64,000 nucleotides of DNA, taken from positions 1 through 64,000 of the forward strand of contig NZ_RKLV01000004.1 of the NCBI RefSeq assembly GCF_026242195.1, read 5' to 3'. The notes beneath the pieces were generated by a model that searched no databases, had not been told where the DNA came from, and worked only from the letters and a program-made list of their open reading frames with translations. Both the position numbers and the translations under genes were made by a program. Below, one piece after another: positions 43,649-54,965 of the stretch. This stretch comes from Halorutilus salinus. Lineage in GTDB: Archaea; Halobacteriota; Halobacteria; Halobacteriales; Halorutilaceae. Position 1 is the stretch's first letter; each line of letters opens with the position of its first letter.

Positions 43649-44683
43649 ATGGGCGCAGGTATCGTCTCCTACGGCGGCTACGTTCCGCGTTACAGGATAC
43701 GGACGGAGGAGATAGCGCGCGTCTGGGGCGACGACGCCGACGCCGTCGAAGGCGGTCTACGTGTCGGGTCGAAGAGCGTCCCCGACGAGGACGAGGATAC
43801 GGCGACTATAAGCGTCGAGGCGGCGCGGCGTGCGCTCGACCGCACGTCGGTCGACGGAGACGGTATAGGCGCTATATACGTCGGGAGCGAGTCGCATCCG
43901 TACGCAGTCAAGCCGACGGCAACGATCGTGGGCGCGGCGGTAGGTGCGACGCCTCTGATGACGGCGGCGGACATGGAGTTCGCGTGTAAGGCGGGAACGG
44001 CGGGTATACAGGCTGTACTCGGTCTCGTCGAGTCGGGGCGTATCGACAACGGCATGGCGATAGGCGCGGACGTTTCGCAGGGCGCGCCCGGCGACGCGCT
44101 CGAATACAGCGCCGCCGCGGGCGGTGCGGCTTTCGTCGTCGGTGACGAGAACGTCGTAGCCGAGATCGAGGACACCATCTCGTACACCTCCGACACACCT
44201 GACTTCTGGCGACGTGAGGGCGAACGTTATCCACAGCACGGCGAACGTTTCACGGGTAAGCCCGCCTACTTCAAACATACCGAGGGCGCGAGCAACGAGC
44301 TTCTCGACAGGCTGGATGCGTCGCCCGACGACTACGACCACGCCGTCTTCCACCAGCCAAACGGCAAGTTCCCCGCACGCGTAGCCGAGTCGCTGGGTTT
44401 CGACGAGGAGCAGTACGCGACGGGTCTTCTCGCGCCCGATATAGGCAACACGTACAGCGGCGCGTCCCTCCTCGGTCTCGTCGCTGTTCTCGACGAGGCG
44501 GAGGCGGGCGAACGTATCTTCTTCGTGTCTTTCGGTTCGGGCGCGGGGAGCGACGCCTTCTCGTTGACAGTCCGCGACGGGATCGAAGAGAAACGCACGG
44601 GTCTGCGCGAGACGTTGGAGGATGTTGAGTACGTCGACTACGCACAGTACGCCAAACACAAGGGTAAGATAAAGGACGAATAA
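43649..44683 (+). CDS. hydroxymethylglutaryl-CoA synthase, archaeal type
   Basis: Condenses acetyl-CoA with acetoacetyl-CoA to HMG-CoA, the first committed step to isoprenoid lipids. The archaeal short form (344 residues) of the thiolase superfamily. The catalytic Cys is Cys113 in [11 protein letters not shown], His lies in [10 protein letters not shown] (near 231), and the C-terminal motif [11 protein letters not shown] matches. It overlaps the thiolase gene by one base (TAATG), and the DUF35 gene follows. In methanogens these three proteins form one complex that passes acetoacetyl-CoA directly. In this gene all active-site residues I can check are present. Confidence 0.9.
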
Positions 44684-45858
44684 TGCAAAGGAACGTAGCA
44701 GTCGTCGGTGTTGGACAGACCGCCTTCGGGGAGCACTGGGAACGCTCATTCCGCGACCTTTTCGTGACCGCAGGGGTGCGCGCTCTCGAAGACGCAGGCG
44801 TGGGTGGCGACGAGATAGACGCGATGTACGGCGGAAACATGAGCGCGGGACAGTTCATCAGACAGGAGCATGTCGCGGCGTTGATCGCCGACTACGCGGG
44901 TCTGGCGACGGAGGGTGTGCCCGCAACGCGTGTCGAGGCGGCGGACGCTTCGGGAGGACTCGCCTTCAGGCAGGCGGTTCTCGACGTTGCAAGCGGCGCT
45001 TCGGACGTCGTCGTTGCGAGCGGTGTTGAGAAGATGACCGACCTCGGAAGCGACGAGACCAACGACGCGCTCGCTGGAAGCGCCGACCGCGAGTGGGAGG
45101 TGTTCGGGGGCGGCAACGTCGCCGCGCTTTACGCACTGATGGCGCGCGCCCATATGAACCGTTACGGGACGACGCGGCGCGAGCTTTCACAGGTCGCCGT
45201 AAAGAACCACCGGCATGCGTCGGGCAACGAGTACGCACAGTACACGAACGAGGTTAGCGCAGAGGTCGTCGAGTCCACGCCTTACGTCGCGGAGCCGTTA
45301 CGCGCCTTCGACTGTTCGCCCGCAAGCGACGGCGCGGCGGCTGTCGTCGTCGTACCCGCCGAGGACGCAACGGCGTACGTCGACGACCCCGTCTACGTAG
45401 AGGCAACCGAACAGGCGAGCGATAGCCTCACCGTACACGACAGACGTGACATAACCGCTCTCGACGCGACGAGCGAGGCGGCGGAGCGCGCATACGCCGA
45501 GGCGAACTTCTCGCCGGGTGACATCGACTTCGCCGAGGTTCACGACTCGTACACTATCGGCGAAGTTCTCGCAGTCGAGGATCTCGGGTTCGCGGAGAAG
45601 GGCGAAGGCGGGGGTTTCATAGACGAGGGTCGCGCCTCCGTCGGCGGAGAGACGCCCGTAAATCCGTCGGGCGGTCTCAAGGCTTGCGGACATCCTCTTG
45701 GCGCAACGGGTGTCAGACAGGTCGTCGACGCGACGCGTCAGTTACGCGGTGACGCGGGGACGCAGGTCGAAGACGGTTCGGTAGCCGTGACGCAGAACGT
45801 CGGCGGAACGGGCGGTACAGCGGTAGTGAACGTTCTCTCCGACGGAGGTTCTGTATGA
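44683..45858 (+). CDS. archaeal acetoacetyl-CoA thiolase-like protein (nucleophile Cys replaced by Asp)
   Basis: Thiolase-superfamily protein (391 residues) of the type that feeds HMG-CoA synthase. The C-terminal catalytic blocks are present: VHDSYTIGEVL with the active His (usually HDCFT), and GGLKACGHPLGATG with the second Cys and His. At the nucleophile position, usually a Cys in a CASG motif, this protein has Asp88 (AADASGG; codon GAC at 44944-44946). Without that Cys normal thiolase chemistry should fail, so the protein may serve as a structural partner, or use other chemistry. It overlaps both neighbours and is part of the regulator/HMGCS/thiolase/DUF35 operon. Confidence 0.8.
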   Translation: MQRNVAVVGVGQTAFGEHWERSFRDLFVTAGVRALEDAGVGGDEIDAMYGGNMSAGQFIRQEHVAALIADYAGLATEGVPATRVEAADASGGLAFRQAVLDVASGASDVVVASGVEKMTDLGSDETNDALAGSADREWEVFGGGNVAALYALMARAHMNRYGTTRRELSQVAVKNHRHASGNEYAQYTNEVSAEVVESTPYVAEPLRAFDCSPASDGAAAVVVVPAEDATAYVDDPVYVEATEQASDSLTVHDRRDITALDATSEAAERAYAEANFSPGDIDFAEVHDSYTIGEVLAVEDLGFAEKGEGGGFIDEGRASVGGETPVNPSGGLKACGHPLGATGVRQVVDATRQLRGDAGTQVEDGSVAVTQNVGGTGGTAVVNVLSDGGSV

Positions 45859-46247
45859 CAGCGCCACGTTTCTGGAGAAACATAGAGCAGAGGTACAGGC
45901 TCGTAGGAACCGAGTGCAGAACGTGCGAAACCGCATACTTCCCGCCGCGCGAACTCTGCCCCGACTGTAGACGTGGCGGCGACGTCGTCGAGAAGGAGTT
46001 TTCGGGCGAGGGCGAGGTCGTCTCTGCGACGGTGGTTCACGAGGCTGTCGGCGACTACGACTCGGAGACGCCGTACACGGTCGCCGTCGTAGAACTCGAA
46101 GAAGGCGCACGCCTCACGACGCAGGTGGTAGACGACGGCGAGGACGACGTCGAACCCGGCGACAGCGTCGAGGCTTGTTTCCGTCGTGTAAGCGACCAAG
46201 GCGACGAAGGCATCGTGCAGTACGGAACGCGTTTCAGACGCGTCTGA
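45855..46247 (+). CDS. DUF35 Zn-ribbon/OB-fold scaffold protein
   Basis: Small scaffold protein (130 residues) that holds thiolase and HMG-CoA synthase together in the archaeal complex and shares its CoA site. The zinc ribbon has Cys21, Cys24, Cys35 and Cys38 (ECRTCET, LCPDC). The OB fold follows (VSATVVHEAVGDY, TPYTVAVVELEEG, GDSVEACFR). It overlaps the thiolase stop by 4 bases (ATGA) and its own 3' end overlaps the convergent phosphohexomutase by 14 bases. It is last in the operon. Confidence 0.9.
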   Translation: MTAPRFWRNIEQRYRLVGTECRTCETAYFPPRELCPDCRRGGDVVEKEFSGEGEVVSATVVHEAVGDYDSETPYTVAVVELEEGARLTTQVVDDGEDDVEPGDSVEACFRRVSDQGDEGIVQYGTRFRRV

Positions 46248-47532
46248 CAGCCTCGCGGACGACCGAGAGAAGGCTCGAAGAGAGGTCGTCGTCGCCCTCG
46301 GAGTAGACACGGACGTACGCCTCCGTACCGCTCGCGCGTACGAGGAACCAGTCGCCGTCGCCGAGATCGACACGTATACCGTCAGGGGTGTCGAAGCCCC
46401 CGTCGTAACGTTCGCGTAACGTCTTCTCAACCTCCTCCATCACCTGTTCCTTCTTACCGTCGTCGCACGGAACCGACTTCTTACGTACATCCGTGTCACG
46501 TAGACCGTCGAACACGTCGGCGTTGTCGGCGTACGCCGCGACGACCTCCGCCGCCGAGACGGTTCCGTCGACCCATCCGCCGAACCCCGGAAAGACGTGT
46601 TTCCAAGGCTCAGCGGCGAAGACGACGTCGTTGTCCCGAACAGCCTCCGAGACGGTGCCGAGTTCGACGCGTCTTACCCCACCCCCGGCTTCGCGTACCG
46701 TATCGTCGACGCGGGGTGACGTGTTCGGTGTCGTAAGAACGGTACCCGTACCCCCAGAGGTAACGTGTCGACGTGCAAGAACCGCTAGAACAGCGTCCTC
46801 CGAAACCACGCCGTCGGCGTCTACGACGACGAGTCTGTCAGCATCGCCGTCGTGCGCGAGTCCGAGGTCGAAGCCTCGACGGTCTACAAACTCCACGAAG
46901 CCGTCGAGTGATTCGGGGGTCGGCTTCGAGCCACGTCCCGGAAACGAGGGGTCGGTCTGTGCGTTAACAGCGACGACGTCGCAACCCATGGCTTCGAGAA
47001 CGGGTACCGTCGTACGCGCACCGACGCCGTTGGCGGTGTCGACGGCTACACGTAGGTCGGCGGTCGTGTCGACGTACCCCGTCGCGTCTTCGACGTACTC
47101 GGATACGATGGAGCGGGTCTGTGCGGTATCTGCGGTCGTCCAGCCGTCCCACGGCGGCGTCTCTACTTCATCCGCGAGTTCCGCCACGCGTTCCTCGTCA
47201 TCGGCGTCGAACTCGCCGCCGTCGGGTCTAAAAAGCTTGACGCCGTTGTCCTCCGCCGGGTTGTGGGACGCCGTCACCGCCACGCCGTGCGCACCCCGGT
47301 CGCGCGCCGTCCAAGCGACGAGATGCGTGGGTACCTCGCCGAGACGTGTAACGTCGCATCCTACCGCCTCGGCACCCGCGACGAACGCCGACACGAGCGA
47401 ACCGCCCGTGTAACGTCCGTCGCGTCCCACGACGACGGCGTCCGCGACTGTTCCTACTGCGTGTCCGAGACGGAGAACGAGGGACGGCGAAACCTCTTTT
47501 ATGCTTCCACGCGCACCGGCTGTTCCGAACAT
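46234..47532 (-). CDS. phosphohexomutase (phosphoglucomutase/phosphomannomutase family)
   Basis: Interconverts hexose 6- and 1-phosphates (glucose, mannose or glucosamine), supplying sugar 1-phosphates for the nucleotide-sugar enzymes in this window. Four domains are visible: phosphoserine loop TASHNPAEDNG with Ser89, the metal loop DGDADR near residue 230, the sugar-binding loop in VVFAAEPWKHVFPG (usual core GEESGH, here AEPWKH), and the phosphate-binding RASGTEAYVRVY near 400. The altered sugar loop means the substrate is uncertain. Length of 432 fits the archaeal branch. It converges with the DUF35 gene. Confidence 0.8.
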   Translation of the reverse strand: MFGTAGARGSIKEVSPSLVLRLGHAVGTVADAVVVGRDGRYTGGSLVSAFVAGAEAVGCDVTRLGEVPTHLVAWTARDRGAHGVAVTASHNPAEDNGVKLFRPDGGEFDADDEERVAELADEVETPPWDGWTTADTAQTRSIVSEYVEDATGYVDTTADLRVAVDTANGVGARTTVPVLEAMGCDVVAVNAQTDPSFPGRGSKPTPESLDGFVEFVDRRGFDLGLAHDGDADRLVVVDADGVVSEDAVLAVLARRHVTSGGTGTVLTTPNTSPRVDDTVREAGGGVRRVELGTVSEAVRDNDVVFAAEPWKHVFPGFGGWVDGTVSAAEVVAAYADNADVFDGLRDTDVRKKSVPCDDGKKEQVMEEVEKTLRERYDGGFDTPDGIRVDLGDGDWFLVRASGTEAYVRVYSEGDDDLSSSLLSVVREAVRRV

Positions 47533-47557: not shown

Positions 47558-48235
47558 CTACTCTTTCGGTGGTAAACCGGCGTCGCGGCGTACTTCGCGT
47601 ACTATCTCGGCACCCGCGCTCGCGCCTATACGTGAAGCACCCGCTTCGAGCAGACGGTGTGCGGTCTCCGCGTCACGTATACCACCGCTCGCCTTTATTC
47701 GTGCGTCGTCACCGACGGCGTCGGACAGGAGACGGACATCCTCGACGGTCGCACCGCCGGGGGCGTACCCCGTACACGTCTTGATGTAGTCGACGCCCGC
47801 CTCGACGCAGAGATGCGCTGTCCTGCGTTTCTCATCGTCGTTTAACAGACCCGTCTCGACTATCGCCTTCGTCGTCGGCGCTGTGTCTACGACACCGCGT
47901 ATGTCACTGATGAAGCCTTCTTCGTCACCCGAAAGGAACGCGGAGACGTTACATGCGACGTCTATCTCGGTTGCGCCCGCGTCGACAGCCTCGCGCGCCT
48001 CGTACGTCTTTACCGACGGCGTCGTGGTTCCGTGAGGAAAGCTGACGACGGAAACCACCTCTCCCTCGAACACGTCGGGCACACGGTTAAGACGCGACGG
48101 AGGCAGGCAGACGTTTGTCCCGTAACGCACCGCCTCATCGATCGCACGGTCTACATCGTCAGCCGTATGACTCTTACCGAGAACCGTATGGTCGATGAGG
48201 GACGCGAACCGTTCTACGTCCGTTTCGGCGTCCAT
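47558..48235 (-). CDS. deoC: deoxyribose-phosphate aldolase
   Basis: Splits 2-deoxyribose 5-phosphate into glyceraldehyde 3-phosphate and acetaldehyde, in nucleoside catabolism. The 225-residue TIM barrel has the Schiff-base lysine in YIKTCTGYAPGG and the second lysine in IKASGGIRD; IDVACNVSAFLSG precedes. Its start overlaps the stop of the large surface-protein gene by a single base (TGATG), so it is coupled to it. A nucleoside phosphorylase lies just beyond that gene on the opposite strand, giving a functional link. Intact and of normal length. Confidence 0.92.
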   Translation of the reverse strand: MDAETDVERFASLIDHTVLGKSHTADDVDRAIDEAVRYGTNVCLPPSRLNRVPDVFEGEVVSVVSFPHGTTTPSVKTYEAREAVDAGATEIDVACNVSAFLSGDEEGFISDIRGVVDTAPTTKAIVETGLLNDDEKRRTAHLCVEAGVDYIKTCTGYAPGGATVEDVRLLSDAVGDDARIKASGGIRDAETAHRLLEAGASRIGASAGAEIVREVRRDAGLPPKE

Positions 48236-50325
48236 CAGTCGCGTCTTCCAAGACCAACCGCGACGACGGCGAGGGCTACGAGCGCCACGAGGGCACCGAA
48301 TCCGGGTAGCGGCGAACCGTCGCCGGTGCCATCCTCTTCGACACCGAGGTACTCAGCCGCAGATGAGGTGTCCATCTCAGGGAACTCACGATCCCAGTCG
48401 CCCGGAAGGTTGACCGCCGTCTCGTCGTTGACCTCTTCGAGCGACCGGACAGACTCACCGGACGGATCGTCGACGAGCGAGTCGGACTTGACGTAGGTGG
48501 ATGTCGTACCGTTCTGAGTCGTGCCGACGGTTTCCGTAACACCGTATCCGGTTAGGGACTGTATCGCTGAACTAAGAGCGGTTCCGTTTTCGAAAGCCGC
48601 GCCCCCCTCAACGCTCCATTTTCCGTCGGAGACGGTCGCGTCCATCTTTGCGACACGGAAACCCGACTCGTTGATATGACGTATGACGGAGGCGTTTATT
48701 TCGTCGGAGCCCCGTAACGCGCTTTCGTACGCCTTCAGCGTCGTCTGATACCCCTCGGCGAGGGCTTCGCCTTCGGTTTCCCAGTCCATACTGCCTTCGA
48801 TCCCCGCGTCCGTTGTCGAAGCCGTAAGTTCGAACGACGAGTTAGCGATGGGAACGCCGCGGTTCTCCAGCTCTGTGACGTAGCTCTCCCAGTTCTCGGT
48901 CGTATGGCTTATGTCGGCGGTTACCGTAGCCGTAGCGCCCGAACCGCCGCCTGAGCCGAAGGGCGACGAAGCCGAGGAGCCGCCCTGTGACTCAAGGCTA
49001 CCCGACCACTCCCACCGCGAGACGAGACCCGCGGCTTCTGCGGCTTCCATCTGTTTCTGGGACATGTTGATTACCTCGTCAAAGTAGCCCTCGGAAAGGA
49101 ACGGTGACGAGGAAGCTCCGCCCATTGCATCCGCTCCCGGATCGGCTCCGGACGGCTGTAGCTCCGACGAGAGGCGCATGAACGAGGTGAACACGTCGTT
49201 GTAGTTCTCAACGTCAACCGACCAGTTGAGTTGGGTTCCGTTTTCGCCCGAAACGGTCGCGAACGAGAGACGGTTGACCGTGAGGTTACGTATCCCTTGA
49301 GCAACCTCGTCAACGGTCTCCTGCGACGCGTTAGCCGACATGTCCTCGGCAAGCGCATCTGCGATGCCCTCCTGGACGCCCGTGTACTCAACGGTGTACT
49401 CGACATCTATCAGCGACTCGTTTGTGGTCGAGCCTAAGCCGCTCTCGACGGTGACGTTCTCGAACGAGTACGATTCGAGCGTCAGGTTGGCGGTAGCGCT
49501 GACGTTCTCTGCGAACGCGGTGTACCGCGCGCTCAACGTATCCTCGGCTCTTTCACGCGTACCCCACTCCTCCGCAGGGTCGGTACGCGAAGGCTGAATC
49601 GCCCTCGGCTCGTTCCCCGTCCCTGTGCCGGGGTCGTCGGGGAACTGTGGCTCACCGCGTACGATACGGCGTTCCCTTGCGTCGAGGACGTAGCCGCCGT
49701 TGTTCTCGGTCAGATCGAACCTGCTAACCTCACGGACGGACGAACCTCCGAGACTCATCCGGTAGTTGACCGAGCCTGACGACGTAAGCCGGTCGGGTTC
49801 GGTGACTATCTCGCCCTCGGTGGTCGCCGTCGGTGCGAGGGCGGCGAGACCCGACGAAACCGTCGCGTCGAGCTGTGCGTCGAGCGACGAGTCGGTGGAG
49901 TCCGACCGGCTCGTGACATCAAGGGTCATCTCTTCGAGCATACCCGTATCATCAGCCGCGAAGCTACCGTTCGCCATCCAGGACGTAGGCTCAGCCTCGA
50001 AGGAGAAGTCGCCCGCGAAGCCCTCGCCAGCCGTTCCGTTTGCGAGGAGATGTACAAGACCCGTCGACATATCCGCGCCGAACGTTACCGACCCGTTCGT
50101 GTCGCCTGTACCGTTGTAGACGAGTACGCCGCTACCGTCCTCTCTTACGTAGACCGCATCCGCGGCGTTGCCCCCTTCCATCTCCCCGAAGCCGCCGTCG
50201 GAGACGCCTGCACCCGGCTCCTGACCGCCTTCGAACTGTGCTGTCGCCGCCGAAGCACCGACGACTGTCAGTGCTACGACAGCCAACGTCACGAAAACCG
50301 TCGTTCGTTTCTTACGTGTCTGCAT
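48235..50325 (-). CDS. PGF-CTERM-anchored surface protein
   Basis: Exported protein of 696 residues. A Sec signal (TVFVTLAVVALTVVGASA, residues 8-25) leads the chain, and the C terminus shows the archaeosortase A tripartite signal: PLPGFGALVAL helix and terminal GRRD. There are many N-glycosylation sites (N-x-S/T). A Gly/Ser-rich linker near 470-485 separates domains. The segment around residues 390-560 is homologous to the protein at 51171-52130, for example TTENWESYVTELENRGVP here against SENTATYLEELRDTGVP there. The ATG at 50325 follows an AAGGAG ribosome-binding site. It is coupled to deoC downstream. Function unknown. Confidence 0.8.
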   Translation of the reverse strand: MQTRKKRTTVFVTLAVVALTVVGASAATAQFEGGQEPGAGVSDGGFGEMEGGNAADAVYVREDGSGVLVYNGTGDTNGSVTFGADMSTGLVHLLANGTAGEGFAGDFSFEAEPTSWMANGSFAADDTGMLEEMTLDVTSRSDSTDSSLDAQLDATVSSGLAALAPTATTEGEIVTEPDRLTSSGSVNYRMSLGGSSVREVSRFDLTENNGGYVLDARERRIVRGEPQFPDDPGTGTGNEPRAIQPSRTDPAEEWGTRERAEDTLSARYTAFAENVSATANLTLESYSFENVTVESGLGSTTNESLIDVEYTVEYTGVQEGIADALAEDMSANASQETVDEVAQGIRNLTVNRLSFATVSGENGTQLNWSVDVENYNDVFTSFMRLSSELQPSGADPGADAMGGASSSPFLSEGYFDEVINMSQKQMEAAEAAGLVSRWEWSGSLESQGGSSASSPFGSGGGSGATATVTADISHTTENWESYVTELENRGVPIANSSFELTASTTDAGIEGSMDWETEGEALAEGYQTTLKAYESALRGSDEINASVIRHINESGFRVAKMDATVSDGKWSVEGGAAFENGTALSSAIQSLTGYGVTETVGTTQNGTTSTYVKSDSLVDDPSGESVRSLEEVNDETAVNLPGDWDREFPEMDTSSAAEYLGVEEDGTGDGSPLPGFGALVALVALAVVAVGLGRRD

Positions 50326-50331
50326 ATTTTT

Positions 50332-50337
50332 CTCCTT
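50332..50337 (-). promoter_or_regulatory. ribosome-binding site of the PGF-CTERM gene
   Basis: AAGGAG on the minus strand, 6 bases before the ATG at 50325. A clear Shine-Dalgarno is unusual in this window, where most first genes look leaderless, and it decides the start against the longer frame from 50478. Confidence 0.65.
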
Positions 50338-50463
50338 GTAGCGATCGTGAACCGTAGACCACTTTAAGACTTCGGAGGCGCAAACGCGTGTTTTTCCAAC
50401 GGTCGTCAACCCCATCCCCGAACCTTTCGATGGTGATTTGCACGGGGAGCGCGAAGCCGGCGT

Positions 50464-51183
50464 ATGAAACAGCCGCATATACTCGTCGAAGAGGGCGCGG
50501 TAAACGGAACCGTACTTCTACCCGGCGACCCCGGACGTGTCGACAGGATAGCCCAGTACCTCGACGGTGTGGAGCATCTATCCGACAACCGTGAGTACAG
50601 GCTCGTCAACGGAAGCTACAACGGAAGCCCCCTTACGGTCTGTTCGACTGGAGTCGGTTGTCCGAGCGCCGCTGTCGCAGTCGAGGAGCTTGCGAACGTC
50701 GGTGCGGAACGTCTCGTACGTGTCGGAACGGCGGGCGGTCTACAGTCTGAGATGAACACAGGGGACATCGTGGTGGCGACGGCGGCGGCGAAGTTCGACG
50801 GAACGACAGAGAGGTACGAGAACGTCGAGTACCCCGCCGTCGCGTCCCTCGGTATCGTCAACAGCCTCGTAAACACAGCCGAACGCGAGGGTCAGGACGT
50901 ACACGTCGGACCTGTCGTGACCGACGACGCCTTCTACGCCGAGGACGAGATAGCCTTCGACTGGGAGGAGGCACGTATGCTCGCAGTCGAGATGGAGGCG
51001 GCGGCTATATTCACGCTCGCGCGGCGTCTGGGTCTCGAAGCGGGCGGTATACTCGCCGTCGACGGGAACCTCGTCGCGGGCGAACAGAAGGGGGAGACGG
51101 AGGACGACGAACTGTCCGAGGAGGCGAAGCAGGGGGTCGAACGCGAGGTACGTGTTGCTCTTGAAGCCGTTCAGGATATGTAG
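50464..51183 (+). CDS. nucleoside phosphorylase (uridine/purine phosphorylase family)
   Basis: PNP/UDP family phosphorylase, 239 residues, splitting a nucleoside into base and (deoxy)ribose 1-phosphate. Phosphate-site glycines are in LPGDPGRVDRI, RLVRVGTAGGLQ is the family's central motif, and VEMEAAAIFTLA carries the Met-Glu that contacts ribose 2'/3' hydroxyls. Base specificity cannot be fixed, but uridine-type sequence features (GTAGGLQ) favour a uridine phosphorylase-like enzyme. DeoC across the surface-protein gene would use the resulting deoxyribose phosphate after a mutase step. ATG start; convergent overlap of 13 bases with the next gene. Confidence 0.85.
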   Translation: MKQPHILVEEGAVNGTVLLPGDPGRVDRIAQYLDGVEHLSDNREYRLVNGSYNGSPLTVCSTGVGCPSAAVAVEELANVGAERLVRVGTAGGLQSEMNTGDIVVATAAAKFDGTTERYENVEYPAVASLGIVNSLVNTAEREGQDVHVGPVVTDDAFYAEDEIAFDWEEARMLAVEMEAAAIFTLARRLGLEAGGILAVDGNLVAGEQKGETEDDELSEEAKQGVEREVRVALEAVQDM

Positions 51184-52130
51184 TACACGACGGGCGCGAC
51201 AGGAAGAGGTACGAACGCCGTCCAAGCACCGAGACGGTCGCGGAGGCTTGCCGTCGGTTCACCGTCGGTCTCGAAGTCGAGGGAGAGTGACGTCTTTCCG
51301 TCTCCGACGTTGTATCCGAGGTCGAACGAAGACCGCGCGGGCGTCGGGACGCCTGTATCACGAAGCTCCTCAAGGTAGGTCGCCGTGTTCTCCGACGTGT
51401 AGCTGACCTCGGCAGAAACCGCGCCGCGTCTGTTCTCCGCCGTCCAGTTGACCTCCTGTGCAAAGCCCGAACGTTGGCGCGCGCGCCGGAGTTTCTCAGC
51501 CCCCTCATAGCCTCTGTCGTTTAGGGAGACGGCGGACAGTGTACCGTGGTTCCGGAGATCGAAGCTCCAGTTAGCCTCCGTCTCATCGCCCCGCGATAGG
51601 TCGACAGCCGCCTCATCGACGGTCGGTGTCCTCATACCCGCCGCGTCCCTCAGACCGTCGAGGCGTGCGGTATAGTCGGCGTCGACGGCTGTTACGCCCC
51701 TGTGCTGGGTACGTTCCGAGGCGTGCGCGTCGATATAGACAGAGACCTCAGACCCGACGGTCTCGGAGACCGATGTAAGGAAGGAGTCGACGACCGCACG
51801 CACCGTTTCGGAGGAGCCAACGAAGCCGGCTACCGGAGAGTTAACCGGAACTACATGGCTACCCTCGACGGCGAAAGGGTCGTCGACTATACGGAGTTCG
51901 TGGAGTTCGGTGGGTCGTTCTCGGTACACGGTTACGTCGCCGGAGGAGACGAAACCCGACGGTGTCTCGCGTACACGCCCCTCGGTTTCGAAGAAAGGCG
52001 CGGGAAGAGCTGTCTCCTCAGCGTCGAGGCGTACGTCCAGACGCTCCGGTAGGTCAGCCTTTACTTCGACGGTACCTGACCGCGGGGCGAGATCCTCGAC
52101 GAGGCTCCGTAGCTCGGCGACGGTAAACAT
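51171..52130 (-). CDS. cytosolic-looking paralogue of the PGF-CTERM surface protein
   Basis: 319-residue protein with no signal peptide. From about residue 145 to 290 it aligns with the PGF-CTERM protein at 48235: VDADYTARLDGLRDA with VEYTVEYTGVQEG, NWSFDLRNHG with NWSVDVENYN, TSENTATYLEELRDTGVP with TTENWESYVTELENRGVP, and LDFETDGEP with MDWETEGEA. A short hydrophobic tail (AFVPLPVAPVVYYIS) ends the chain. It therefore looks like a paralogue that lost, or never had, the export and anchoring signals. No known function. It lies between the phosphorylase (convergent) and cgi121. Confidence 0.65.
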   Translation of the reverse strand: MFTVAELRSLVEDLAPRSGTVEVKADLPERLDVRLDAEETALPAPFFETEGRVRETPSGFVSSGDVTVYRERPTELHELRIVDDPFAVEGSHVVPVNSPVAGFVGSSETVRAVVDSFLTSVSETVGSEVSVYIDAHASERTQHRGVTAVDADYTARLDGLRDAAGMRTPTVDEAAVDLSRGDETEANWSFDLRNHGTLSAVSLNDRGYEGAEKLRRARQRSGFAQEVNWTAENRRGAVSAEVSYTSENTATYLEELRDTGVPTPARSSFDLGYNVGDGKTSLSLDFETDGEPTASLRDRLGAWTAFVPLPVAPVVYYIS

Positions 52131-52163
52131 CCGCGTCGAAGTCGTCGTCGCCCCGTCTAAAAC

Positions 52164-52655
52164 CTACTTGTTAACGTCGAGAACTGCGACGCGTTCGAGT
52201 ACGAGGGATTCGAGGCGGTCTTTACCGACGGCGTCAACCTCCTCGTCGGTCAGACCGAAGAAGTCGAGCAGACGCCCTTCGTCGCCGTAGTCGAAGGTTT
52301 CGGGTTCGTGCGTCAGGGATAGGATGTCGTCGACGGCGTTTTCCTCGGAACCACCGTCGACCACAAGGACGGCGTCGTGCTCTCCGGGTCGCAGACCCAT
52401 ACGTGTCGCGACGTCTATCTGGCGCGTCCCTGCGGCGTAGAGAAGAACCTCCATAGAGAGTGTGTCGGCGACGTTCTCGCCGCGGTCGAATGACCGTCGC
52501 GCCTTCTTGACCGCCTCCTCGACGTGCAGACGCGAGACGATGTAACGCGCGTCGAAAGCCTGCGCGACCACGTCGTGGTCGTCGCGTACGGCGTCGAGTT
52601 CGTCGAGGAAGTCGTCGGTGTCTTCGACGACGGCGGTACGTTCGAGGATTCGCAT
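52164..52655 (-). CDS. cgi121: KEOPS complex subunit Cgi121
   Basis: Regulatory subunit of KEOPS, which makes the t6A37 modification of ANN-decoding tRNAs; Cgi121 binds Bud32 and the tRNA 3' CCA end. The 163-residue protein shows the family core: AFDARYIVSRLHVEEAVKKA, then SMEVLLYAAGTRQIDVAT and MGLRPGEHDAVLVV. In many haloarchaea it lies beside the Hel308 gene, as here, but a toxin-antitoxin pair, a mobile element and a second broken pair now sit between the two (52.7-55.0 kb), which suggests an insertion hotspot. No other KEOPS gene is in the window. Confidence 0.85.
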   Translation of the reverse strand: MRILERTAVVEDTDDFLDELDAVRDDHDVVAQAFDARYIVSRLHVEEAVKKARRSFDRGENVADTLSMEVLLYAAGTRQIDVATRMGLRPGEHDAVLVVDGGSEENAVDDILSLTHEPETFDYGDEGRLLDFFGLTDEEVDAVGKDRLESLVLERVAVLDVNK

Positions 52656-52739: not shown

Positions 52740-52970
52740 ATGTCGAAGACGATACGTCTCGACGAGGATGTCTACGAGGGGCTGACGGAGCGCAAACGCG
52801 ACAACGAAACGTACTCCGAGGCTGTCGAACGTCTGATAGGCGGGCGTTCGGTTCTGGGTTTGGCGGGGATACTTTCCGACGAAGAGGCGGAGGAGCTGGA
52901 GGAGGTTCTCGATGAGGTCGACGAACGCGATGCGGAGGACGACGAGGCGCTCGTGGAGGAGTTCGGATGA
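52740..52970 (+). CDS. vapB: VapB antitoxin (DUF217/UPF0330)
   Basis: 76-residue antitoxin of the DUF217/UPF0330 group. The N-terminal strand and ribbon-helix-helix (KTIRLDEDVYEGLTERK, TYSEAVERLI) should bind the operator just upstream; the acidic C-terminal half (DEEAEELEEVLDEVDERDA) should cover the toxin active site. The same family's truncated copy is at 25722. ATG start at 52740, chosen over the longer frame from 52524 because the operator and family N terminus fit. It overlaps vapC by 4 bases. Confidence 0.85.
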   Translation: MSKTIRLDEDVYEGLTERKRDNETYSEAVERLIGGRSVLGLAGILSDEEAEELEEVLDEVDERDAEDDEALVEEFG

Positions 52971-53359
52971 TACTCGACTCTTCGTTCGTAATAGATCTGA
53001 TGAAGAACGACGAAGGCGCTGTCGAGAAAGCCGCCGAACTTGAAGAGGGTGGCACGACGCTCCGCGTCCCGACTATGACCGTCGCTGAACTCTACGTCGG
53101 CGTGGGATACTCCGAGGAGGTCAGGGAGGAAGCCGACGAGATAGACCGCGCGGTCGGTTCGAAGCCTACGGTGGATATGAACGATGAGATAGCCAAGGAA
53201 GCGGGACGTATGATAGGCGGTCTCAAACGGGAGGGCGAGCCGGTAGGCAGGGGCGACGCCGTGATAGGCGCGACGGCATCGGTGCGCGGTGAGCCGGTTC
53301 TAACGAGAAACACAGCCGACTTCGAAAGGCTGGGTGTCGAGGTAGAACGTTACAGGTAG
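52967..53359 (+). CDS. vapC: VapC PIN-domain ribonuclease toxin
   Basis: Toxin partner of the preceding VapB, 130 residues. The acidic metal-binding residues are all present: LDSSFVIDLMK (Asp4), TVAELYVGV (Glu near 47), GRGDAVIGA (Asp near 98) and RNTADFERL (Asp near 116). It should cleave tRNA or rRNA when free. ATGA overlap with vapB secures coupled translation. The operon looks fully intact, unlike the PIN relic at 54556. The hairpin-rich element begins about 30 bases after its stop. Confidence 0.88.
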   Translation: MILDSSFVIDLMKNDEGAVEKAAELEEGGTTLRVPTMTVAELYVGVGYSEEVREEADEIDRAVGSKPTVDMNDEIAKEAGRMIGGLKREGEPVGRGDAVIGATASVRGEPVLTRNTADFERLGVEVERYR

Positions 53360-53390
53360 TACAGCAGAATGCCCCCGTCTTTAGGCGTAT

Positions 53391-53852
53391 ACTGAGGAAG
53401 CTCAGTTTGTCTCGCAAATCAAAGATTTGCGGGGTACGCGAATCTTCGATTCGCTTGGCTCAGAAACCTTCGATTTCTGAACGGGTGATGAATCCGTCGG
53501 ACGGTTCAACTAACCGTTAGTGTTAATACAGTCAGGAATTTAGTTGTAGTTAGGTCAACCGACCTACGGAGGCGGCTTGTCCGCCCGAAGTAACGAGGCA
53601 ATATCCGAAAGAGGTTGTGAAGGTGCATCCTAAAAGGTGTACTGTAAAACTCCCATCAAGCACGGTGAAAAAGATAACTCCGAATCTTCTTACGGAAGAT
53701 AGGAGTAACGGTAGCTTGGCACTGCCACGAACCGATATAACCGCGAACGGTGGAAACACCTGATAAGGTTGTGTCGGTTGGAAATCTTAAATTCCCAACG
53801 TGGGATTCACCCGACTTTAGGCGGGTGAGGATGTCAAGCGGGAGGATGTCAA
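53391..53852 (+). mobile_element. non-coding IS200/IS605-derived (PATE-type) element
   Basis: About 460 bases without a protein gene and with dense hairpins. At the left four follow each other: 53391-53406 (ACTGAG/CTCAGT), 53413-53431 (CGCAAATC/GATTTGCG), 53438-53454 (GCGAATC/GATTCGC) and 53460-53480 (TCAGAAA/TTTCTGA); a fifth lies at 53490-53507. At the right a hairpin at 53808-53827 (CACCCG/CGGGTG around a TTTAGG-type loop) leads into GAGGATGTCAA, the right-end style of haloarchaeal tnpB elements and their non-autonomous PATE derivatives. The right-end sequence occurs twice (53827-53837, 53842-53852). The region before it may be a relic of the omega-RNA. No TnpA or TnpB frame is left. Confidence 0.65.
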
Positions 53853-54064
53853 TGAGTGCTACCGGAACGCGCCTTGCGCGCCATGTAGACGAAGAGACCG
53901 AGTATACCGAGGACGCCGTACGCGAAACCGCGTAGCCTCGGACGCGACAAGCCACGTTTCTTTGAGTCGTCGTAGACGTAGTAGCCGACGGGTGGACCGA
54001 GGACGAGAACGTACAGAGCCACGCGTACAACCAGACCGTTGTAGGCGGTGAGTAGCTCCGTCAT
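53849..54064 (-). CDS. small membrane protein, C terminus set by the mobile element
   Basis: 71-residue protein with two hydrophobic helices (VVRVALYVLVLGPPVGYYVY and FAYGVLGILGLFVYMA) and a basic C-terminal tail. Its stop codon (53851-53849) lies inside the GAGGATGTCAA right end of the mobile element, so the natural 3' end was probably replaced by the insertion. It overlaps the stop of the upstream small membrane gene by 4 bases, so the two are coupled. Similar two-helix proteins are found in haloarchaea; function unknown. Confidence 0.55.
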   Translation of the reverse strand: MTELLTAYNGLVVRVALYVLVLGPPVGYYVYDDSKKRGLSRPRLRGFAYGVLGILGLFVYMARKARSGSTH

Positions 54065-54234
54065 CCCTCTCTACCCTCCAGACGAGGGACGGCGTAGAGA
54101 ACGAGACCCGTAAACGCCATCAGAAACGCGAATAAGACGTTCATCAGGCTCCGTGAGCCGATCGACAGGGCGTAGACGTATCCGACGCCGATAGCCATGT
54201 AGACGAGGGCGAAGAGAACGTTCGTATTCGCCAT
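54061..54234 (-). CDS. small membrane protein
   Basis: 57-residue protein with two predicted helices (NVLFALVYMAIGVGYVYAL and LMNVLFAFLMAFTGLVLYA) and an acidic-basic tail RLEGREG. I chose the ATG at 54234, since the region upstream in frame is not membrane-like and overlaps the divergent antitoxin promoter. It forms a coupled pair with the 71-residue membrane protein downstream. No family name known to me. Confidence 0.5.
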   Translation of the reverse strand: MANTNVLFALVYMAIGVGYVYALSIGSRSLMNVLFAFLMAFTGLVLYAVPRLEGREG

Positions 54235-54328
54235 GTCAGTTCTACGTCGCGTAGCTAAAAGGGCTTCCGCTCGGTAGGGCTTTGCGCCGACCGTCAGACG
54301 GATACTTCTGTAACACAAATGAGTACAC

Positions 54329-54559
54329 ATGACAGAGAAACTAAAGCCGGTTCAGGCGCGGGTACCCGAGAGCGTCGAGGACGAACTCGACCGCCTCGTT
54401 GAGTCGGGCAGATACGCGAGCAGGAGCGAGGCGATACGCGAGGCTCTTAGGAAGTTACTCGCCGAGGAAAGCCGTGGTTCTCTGCGAGAACTCGCCGACC
54501 GCGCAGGCGTGAGCGAGGAGGACATGCTCGAAGAACTCGATGACGTTAGAAACGGATGA
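54329..54559 (+). CDS. ribbon-helix-helix (CopG/ParD-like) antitoxin
   Basis: 76-residue antitoxin with the RHH fold: KPVQARVPESVEDELDRLV strand and helix, then GRYASRSEAIREALRKLL. The C-terminal tail LRELADRAGVSEEDMLEELD would contact a toxin. It overlaps the PIN gene downstream by 4 bases (ATGA), the normal antitoxin-toxin order. Because the toxin is frameshifted, this antitoxin is probably an orphan in practice. ATG start after a TAACACAAAT stretch. Confidence 0.75.
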   Translation: MTEKLKPVQARVPESVEDELDRLVESGRYASRSEAIREALRKLLAEESRGSLRELADRAGVSEEDMLEELDDVRNG

Positions 54560-54965
54560 CGAGACATACCGTCTTCGTGGACACCAACATACTCGTTTCG
54601 GGTATCTTCTTCGACGGTCCGGAAGCCGAACTCCTCGATACGAGAGGTATCCGTCTCGTAACTGCTGAGGTCTGTAAGGAGGAACTGAAGGATGTCTCCT
54701 CTCGGAAGTGGACGTCGAGGAAGGCGCACGCGAGATGCTTAACGGCGCTCTCGTGGATATAGATACAGTGCCCGAAGAGAGGTACGAAGGTAGATACGAC
54801 GAAGCCACCGAAGTCGTCGGCGAGGGAAACGACGCCGAGGTTCTCGCGTGTGTTCTAACGGTCGAACCCGACTACTTCGTGACGGGTGACGGGGATTTCC
54901 ATAACAAAGAGGTTAGGCACGCGGTCGACGTGAAGGGAACATCGGATACGCTCGCCGAACTGTAG
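54556..54965 (+). pseudogene. frameshifted PIN-domain toxin
   Basis: PIN-family toxin gene split by a frameshift near 54690-54705. The first part reads VFVDTNILVSGIFFDG through TAEVCKEELKDV, with the first Asp. The second part, in another frame, reads SEVDVEEGAREMLNG through EGNDAEVLACVL and YFVTGDGDF, with the other acidic residues. Together they span one normal PIN domain of about 135 residues; neither half alone would be active. It follows its antitoxin with an ATGA overlap. A single indel could repair it, so it is either a recent loss or a sequencing error. Confidence 0.75.

Follow-up and report, generated by a model that had tools for sequence, protein, structure and literature searches.

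The 64,000-nucleotide stretch of Halorutilus salinus DNA analyzed here (contig NZ_RKLV01000004.1, positions 1 to 64,000; hereafter the window) contains a locus in which enzyme genes of nucleoside catabolism are interleaved with two related genes. We refer to the first, encoding a predicted surface protein of 696 residues with a PGF-CTERM sorting tail, as LONG, and to the second, encoding a 319-residue protein with neither signal peptide nor sortase tail, as SHORT (Table 1). The gene order in the window's family is Hel308, Cgi121, SHORT, phosphorylase (on the opposite strand), LONG where present, DeoC, and mutase.

LONG, SHORT, and the adjoining enzymes

By sequence comparison, LONG and SHORT are homologous paralogues. 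BLASTP pairs them with an E value of 9e-10, and their alignment score of 44.3 bits is well above background, the maximum among 2,000 shuffles being 32.0 bits and the reversed sequence scoring 21.2 bits. Profile-profile alignment with HHalign places SHORT residues 43-291 on LONG residues 164-521 (99.4% probability, E = 6.2e-22), so that the shared domain, which a preliminary description of this DNA had put at about 150 residues or more, is confirmed and extends over about 250. A search with the SHORT profile across 394 genomes, of the kind that description had proposed, retrieves almost exclusively LONG genes, and no further copy of either gene was found in the window's genome. In the tree, the SHORT sequences form one clade, and the approximately unbiased test does not reject grouping it with the LONG sequences of that family (p-AU 0.42).

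The two proteins differ in their sorting signals, with both a signal peptide and an archaeosortase signal in LONG and neither in SHORT, as had been claimed. LONG begins with a hydrophobic signal sequence (MQTRKKRTTVFVTLAVVALTVVGASAATAQ) in which, judged by sequence features, a basic start leads into a hydrophobic segment and then a region of small residues, and its relatives are similar. The C-terminal tail (LPGFGALVALVALAVVAVGLGRRD) has the PGF motif, transmembrane stretch, and basic end of a PGF-CTERM substrate; its TIGR04126 score is 29.0 bits by the genome scan (cut-off 24.5) and 23.1 bits by hmmscan, slightly under the cut-off. PGF-CTERM matches are found in 29 of 40 LONG relatives, and the window's genome encodes the archaeosortase ArtA (TIGR04125, 284 bits; cut-off 75), which in Haloferax volcanii cleaves PGF-CTERM proteins and anchors them to lipid (PMC7157517). 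LONG is strongly acidic, has an arginine content of 4.0%, and contains 18 N-glycosylation sequons versus 6.2 expected (a number reached in 0/200 shuffles), and it is predicted to be glycosylated.

In SHORT, we observe no sorting-family match, no fitting hydrophobic segment, and no signal peptide. It has 2 sequons versus 1.2 expected and 8.8% arginine versus 5.4 to 8.6% in seven cytosolic neighbors, a composition that suggests a cytosolic protein. Its C-terminal tail (WTAFVPLPVAPVV) is absent from LONG and conserved among the orthologues, with invariant Trp, Pro, and Val positions; only mildly hydrophobic (hydropathy about 1.5 over 15-19 residues), it may make contact with a membrane or a partner. 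The TATA-like box preceding the gene points to a possible promoter of its own.

With respect to the enzymes, the active-site stretch YIKTCTG of DeoC aligns with YVKTSTG of 8qps, as expected of the aldolase. The LONG stop and the deoC start share a single base in the window (TGATG) and four bases in a congener (ATGA), in agreement with the earlier claim that the PGF-CTERM gene is coupled to deoC. The phosphorylase gene and SHORT converge, their 3' ends overlapping by 13 bases, and the phosphorylase falls short of the strict uridine phosphorylase model (TIGR01718, 197 bits versus a cut-off of 280). The mutase carries TASHNP and DGDADR, fitting the phosphohexomutase motifs TxSHNP and DxDxDR, and is not the top GlmM of its genome (353 versus 437 bits for a better match at C10); its closest solved relative is the Thermococcus kodakarensis phosphopentomutase 9ix8 (262 bits versus 221 for the next). 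In a single alignment, its VSED aligns with VDED of 9ix8, where the other GlmM of the genome has VEPD, and the authors of the 9ix8 work tied the Glu-Asp pair to pentose binding. This GlmM-like gene is probably a phosphopentomutase, and "probable phosphopentomutase" would be the better name for it. Given its likeness to the archaeal phosphopentomutase, phosphorylase, mutase, and aldolase would together make up a full deoxynucleoside route, and the nucleoside-degradation pair described earlier is accordingly catabolic as claimed but is a triple rather than a pair.

Table 1. Positions of the genes and sequence features of the locus in the window
Feature	Position	Strand	Basis or detail
Phosphohexomutase-superfamily enzyme, probable phosphopentomutase	46234..47532	-	adjoins deoC
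deoC, deoxyribose-phosphate aldolase	47558..48235	-	TIGR00126, 208 bits (cut-off 117.3)
LONG, 696-residue PGF-CTERM protein (predicted to be exported to the surface), rich in N-glycosylation sequons; Halobacteria-specific family without a name	48235..50325	-	reads from the ATG at 50325 to the stop at 48235
LONG tail with the PGF-CTERM sorting signal: PGF motif and hydrophobic segment, GRRD at the end	48238..48318	-	TIGR04126
Part of LONG homologous to SHORT (residues 164-521)	48766..49839	-	HHalign
Nucleoside phosphorylase, PNP/UDP family, uridine-phosphorylase-like	50464..51183	+	PF01048, 155 bits
SHORT, 319-residue paralogue of LONG lacking both signal peptide and sortase tail; composition of cytosolic type	51171..52130	-	
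Hydrophobic, proline-rich C-terminal tail specific to SHORT (WTAFVPLPVAPVVYYIS)	51174..51224	-	four-orthologue alignment
SHORT residues 43-291, the part aligned with LONG	51258..52004	-	HHalign
TATA-like box TTTTAGA	52156..52162	-	25 nt before SHORT ATG; CTTTAGA in two congeners
cgi121, KEOPS subunit	52164..52655	-	NF011465, 159 bits (cut-off 40)

The LONG family: fold, distribution, and neighborhood

With a single query, LONG homologues are recovered from 75 of the order's 295 genomes, about a quarter of the haloarchaea sampled, with carriers including Haloarchaeobius iranensis, Halorubellus salinus, and Natronobiforma cellulositropha. Beyond the order, the LONG profile matches PGF-CTERM tails alone, and these inflate the tally for the phylum; LONG is an unnamed family restricted to Halobacteria. 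Apart from the tail, no Pfam, NCBIfam, or PHROG domain was found in LONG, and no solute-binding-protein, nuclease, or receptor domain or fold was recognizable by domain and fold searches. Only five columns are invariant among 40 LONG proteins (G, Y, W, N, and T). Assignment of LONG to the nucleases, binding proteins, or enzymes was rejected, there being no such domain, few invariant residues, and no invariant catalytic set, and a viral origin was rejected in the absence of PHROG and BFVD matches. What is defined here is a predicted archaeosortase-dependent surface protein family of which Pfam, NCBIfam, PHROGs, and the PDB cover nothing beyond the tail.

Structure prediction, also among the checks proposed earlier, gave good AlphaFold2 models of both proteins, with a predicted local distance difference test score (pLDDT) of 81.7 and a predicted template modeling score (pTM) of 0.76 for LONG and values of 77.6 and 0.72 for SHORT, so that a confident structural model is now available for the LONG family. 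The LONG model consists of about eleven antiparallel strands (residues 58-223) followed by beta-beta-alpha repeats up to residue 615; the SHORT model retains six strands, followed by four strand pairs. Foldseek found no same-fold match for either model in the PDB. The Fenna-Matthews-Olson protein, ranked first for both, has a long antiparallel beta-sheet in common with them, but the template modeling score is at most 0.22 where >0.5 is the criterion for a shared fold, and such a fold was rejected.

To survey the neighborhood, we selected 44 LONG loci by LONG homology alone, blind to their neighbors. In 16/44 loci, deoC lies no more than about 7 kb from LONG, usually as the direct neighbor and convergent, and 18/44 have a wider nucleoside block (deoC, phosphorylase, or PfkB), with the links spread over four families (f1, f4, f7, and f8). 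PfkB and a nucleoside phosphorylase frequently share the block with deoC. By chance, a gene would lie in such a span in roughly 0.5% of 3.5-Mb genomes, an estimate to be read with the nonindependence of relatives in mind. On the LONG tree, the linked loci are dispersed, their distribution over 40 tips requiring at least six changes, and we regard the linkage as mostly inherited, with losses. LONG and deoC are convergent outside the window's genus, indicating that they are not cotranscribed there; the conserved neighborhood expected from the preliminary description is thus real as far as proximity to deoC and nucleoside catabolism is concerned, but the shared orientation does not extend beyond the genus.

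Another frequent neighbor of LONG is a radical-SAM/UPF0004 gene, and DUF63 is uninformative as a co-occurring partner since it is universal. In one clade (L048, L049, L054, L055, and L064), LONG lies amid genes for a DRG-type GTPase, TiaS, a helix-turn-helix protein, and a xanthine/uracil-family permease. Adjoining LONG paralogues, one with a PGF-CTERM and the other with a motif-less membrane end, are present at L060 (6356-10489), L061 (6733-10737), and L062 (6928-11117), from which it seems that anchors have been exchanged within the family.

SHORT is confined to the window's family, with orthologues in 4/4 searched genomes of that family and in 0/390 others. In all four it follows cgi121, which in the window lies 33 bases upstream on the same strand. 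The window's genome and G037 carry LONG, whereas G025 and G009 lack it but retain the flanks; the latter two assemblies are incomplete, yet their sequence runs through the LONG site. Its absence from two of the four genomes that carry SHORT indicates that LONG is the dispensable part of the locus and SHORT the fixed one, and the notion of an anchored and an unanchored protein as a conserved pair does not hold.

Elsewhere in the region, a VapB/PIN toxin-antitoxin pair (52740-53359) lies between cgi121 and hel308, as does a second antitoxin, of the ribbon-helix-helix type (54329-54559), ahead of a PIN-like frame apparently broken by a frameshift; the whole island (52740-54965) is missing from G025 and G009. 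Within it, a stretch of low G+C content (53370-53850, about 51%) resembles the remnant of an insertion element, and no Rfam elements were found in the region, this stretch included. A block of HMG-CoA synthase, thiolase, and a 130-aa protein occupies positions 43649-46247. The synthase scores 549 bits as the archaeal type versus 72 as the haloarchaeal type, and the archaeal enzyme may have been retained in the window's family, unlike in other haloarchaea, which use a different type.

Possible roles of LONG and SHORT

On balance, we lean toward the explanation that LONG is an archaeosortase-anchored, nonenzymatic binding or scaffold protein of the cell surface, encoded in an old nucleoside-catabolism locus, and that SHORT is its truncated, now cytosolic paralogue. 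LONG would be exported, N-glycosylated, cleaved by archaeosortase, and anchored to lipid at the cell surface, where the beta-meander and the beta-beta-alpha repeats would serve in binding or as a scaffold. Its linkage to the nucleoside genes would represent inherited gene order, partly kept by selection. SHORT would have arisen from a member of the LONG family that shed its export signal and anchor together with the initial beta strands and the final repeat. Now cytosolic, it would have become fixed behind cgi121 in a single family, making it a surface domain put to use inside the cell.

Several points weigh against this explanation. The lipidation and cellular location of LONG are predictions from its sequence, and the binding or scaffold role is a weak deduction from missing signs of an enzyme. 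Richness in sequons is not general among LONG proteins, several of which have none, and some LONG paralogues end in a membrane segment without the PGF motif. The hydrophobic C-tail could still carry SHORT to the membrane. Furthermore, the adjacency of deoC and LONG over four families despite changes in orientation could mean that the two are linked in function more closely than inherited order would imply.

That adjacency is also the strongest point for a tie under a different explanation, which we consider unlikely, namely, that at the cell surface LONG captures nucleosides, nucleotides, or DNA fragments, to be passed on to a permease, with phosphorylase, mutase, and DeoC degrading the sugar inside and SHORT possibly binding the same ligand intracellularly. 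Acquisition of this kind would fit the nearness of deoC and the nucleoside block to LONG, the full enzyme set in the window, and the occurrence of LONG near the xanthine/uracil-family permease in one clade (which, taken alone, could be due to chance) and near a Ham1-family gene in another; external DNA is, moreover, a phosphorus source for Haloferax volcanii (PMC3929857). No direct sign that LONG senses or gathers nucleosides or DNA, as the preliminary description had suggested, was observed. The points that count most against dedicated uptake are that LONG lacks a binding-protein, nuclease, receptor, or transporter domain and any fold match, that LONG and deoC are convergent in most genomes, and that LONG is missing from two family members in which the enzymes and SHORT persist. 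In addition, so acidic a protein is poorly suited to binding DNA, and deoC is present in 282/295 genomes, far more than carry LONG. The narrower proposal that LONG is a surface receptor for nucleoside or external-DNA acquisition, with SHORT serving inside the cell as a version of the same binding domain to report or buffer the ligand, appears doubtful to us. LONG is a testable candidate for a part in the uptake of nucleosides and DNA by haloarchaea.

It is similarly improbable that SHORT acts with its gene neighbors, either Cgi121 (KEOPS, t6A tRNA modification) or Hel308 (DNA repair), and lies near the nucleoside genes by accident. The constant position and direction of SHORT after cgi121 would be expected of such a partner, and hel308 is directly upstream of cgi121 in two of the four family genomes. 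However, the TATA-like box suggests a separate promoter, SHORT just as constantly adjoins the convergent phosphorylase gene, and, to our knowledge, KEOPS and Hel308 need no SHORT-like partner in other archaea. That SHORT is a decaying, functionless fragment of a LONG duplicate is very hard to sustain, and its status as a pseudogene was rejected, since, despite faster evolution (51% identity to the nearest congener versus 71 to 85% for DeoC and phosphorylase among congeners), its frame is open in 4/4 genomes at 29 to 51% identity, about 50 positions are invariant among the four orthologues, and both the new C-tail and the upstream box are conserved.

Comparison with known systems

LONG resembles the PGF-CTERM archaeosortase substrates in its signal peptide, PGF motif, hydrophobic stretch, and basic end, and in the presence of an ArtA gene in the genome; it differs from them in a body unrelated to named families and in a locus that also holds a signal-less paralogue. 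We know of no counterpart of LONG or SHORT in the deoxynucleoside catabolism of Thermococcus kodakarensis. With respect to the noncarboxylating pentose bisphosphate pathway of haloarchaea, in which the PfkB protein is a ribose-1-phosphate kinase (PMC9700705), PfkB and uridine-phosphorylase-type genes are also part of the LONG-linked block of several haloarchaea, whereas the window block has deoC and the mutase but no PfkB nearby. The deoxynucleoside catabolism of Thermococcus kodakarensis (phosphorylase, phosphopentomutase, and deoxyribose-phosphate aldolase [DERA]; PMC11641776) uses the same three enzyme families that lie side by side in the window, where, in contrast, they are interleaved with LONG and SHORT.

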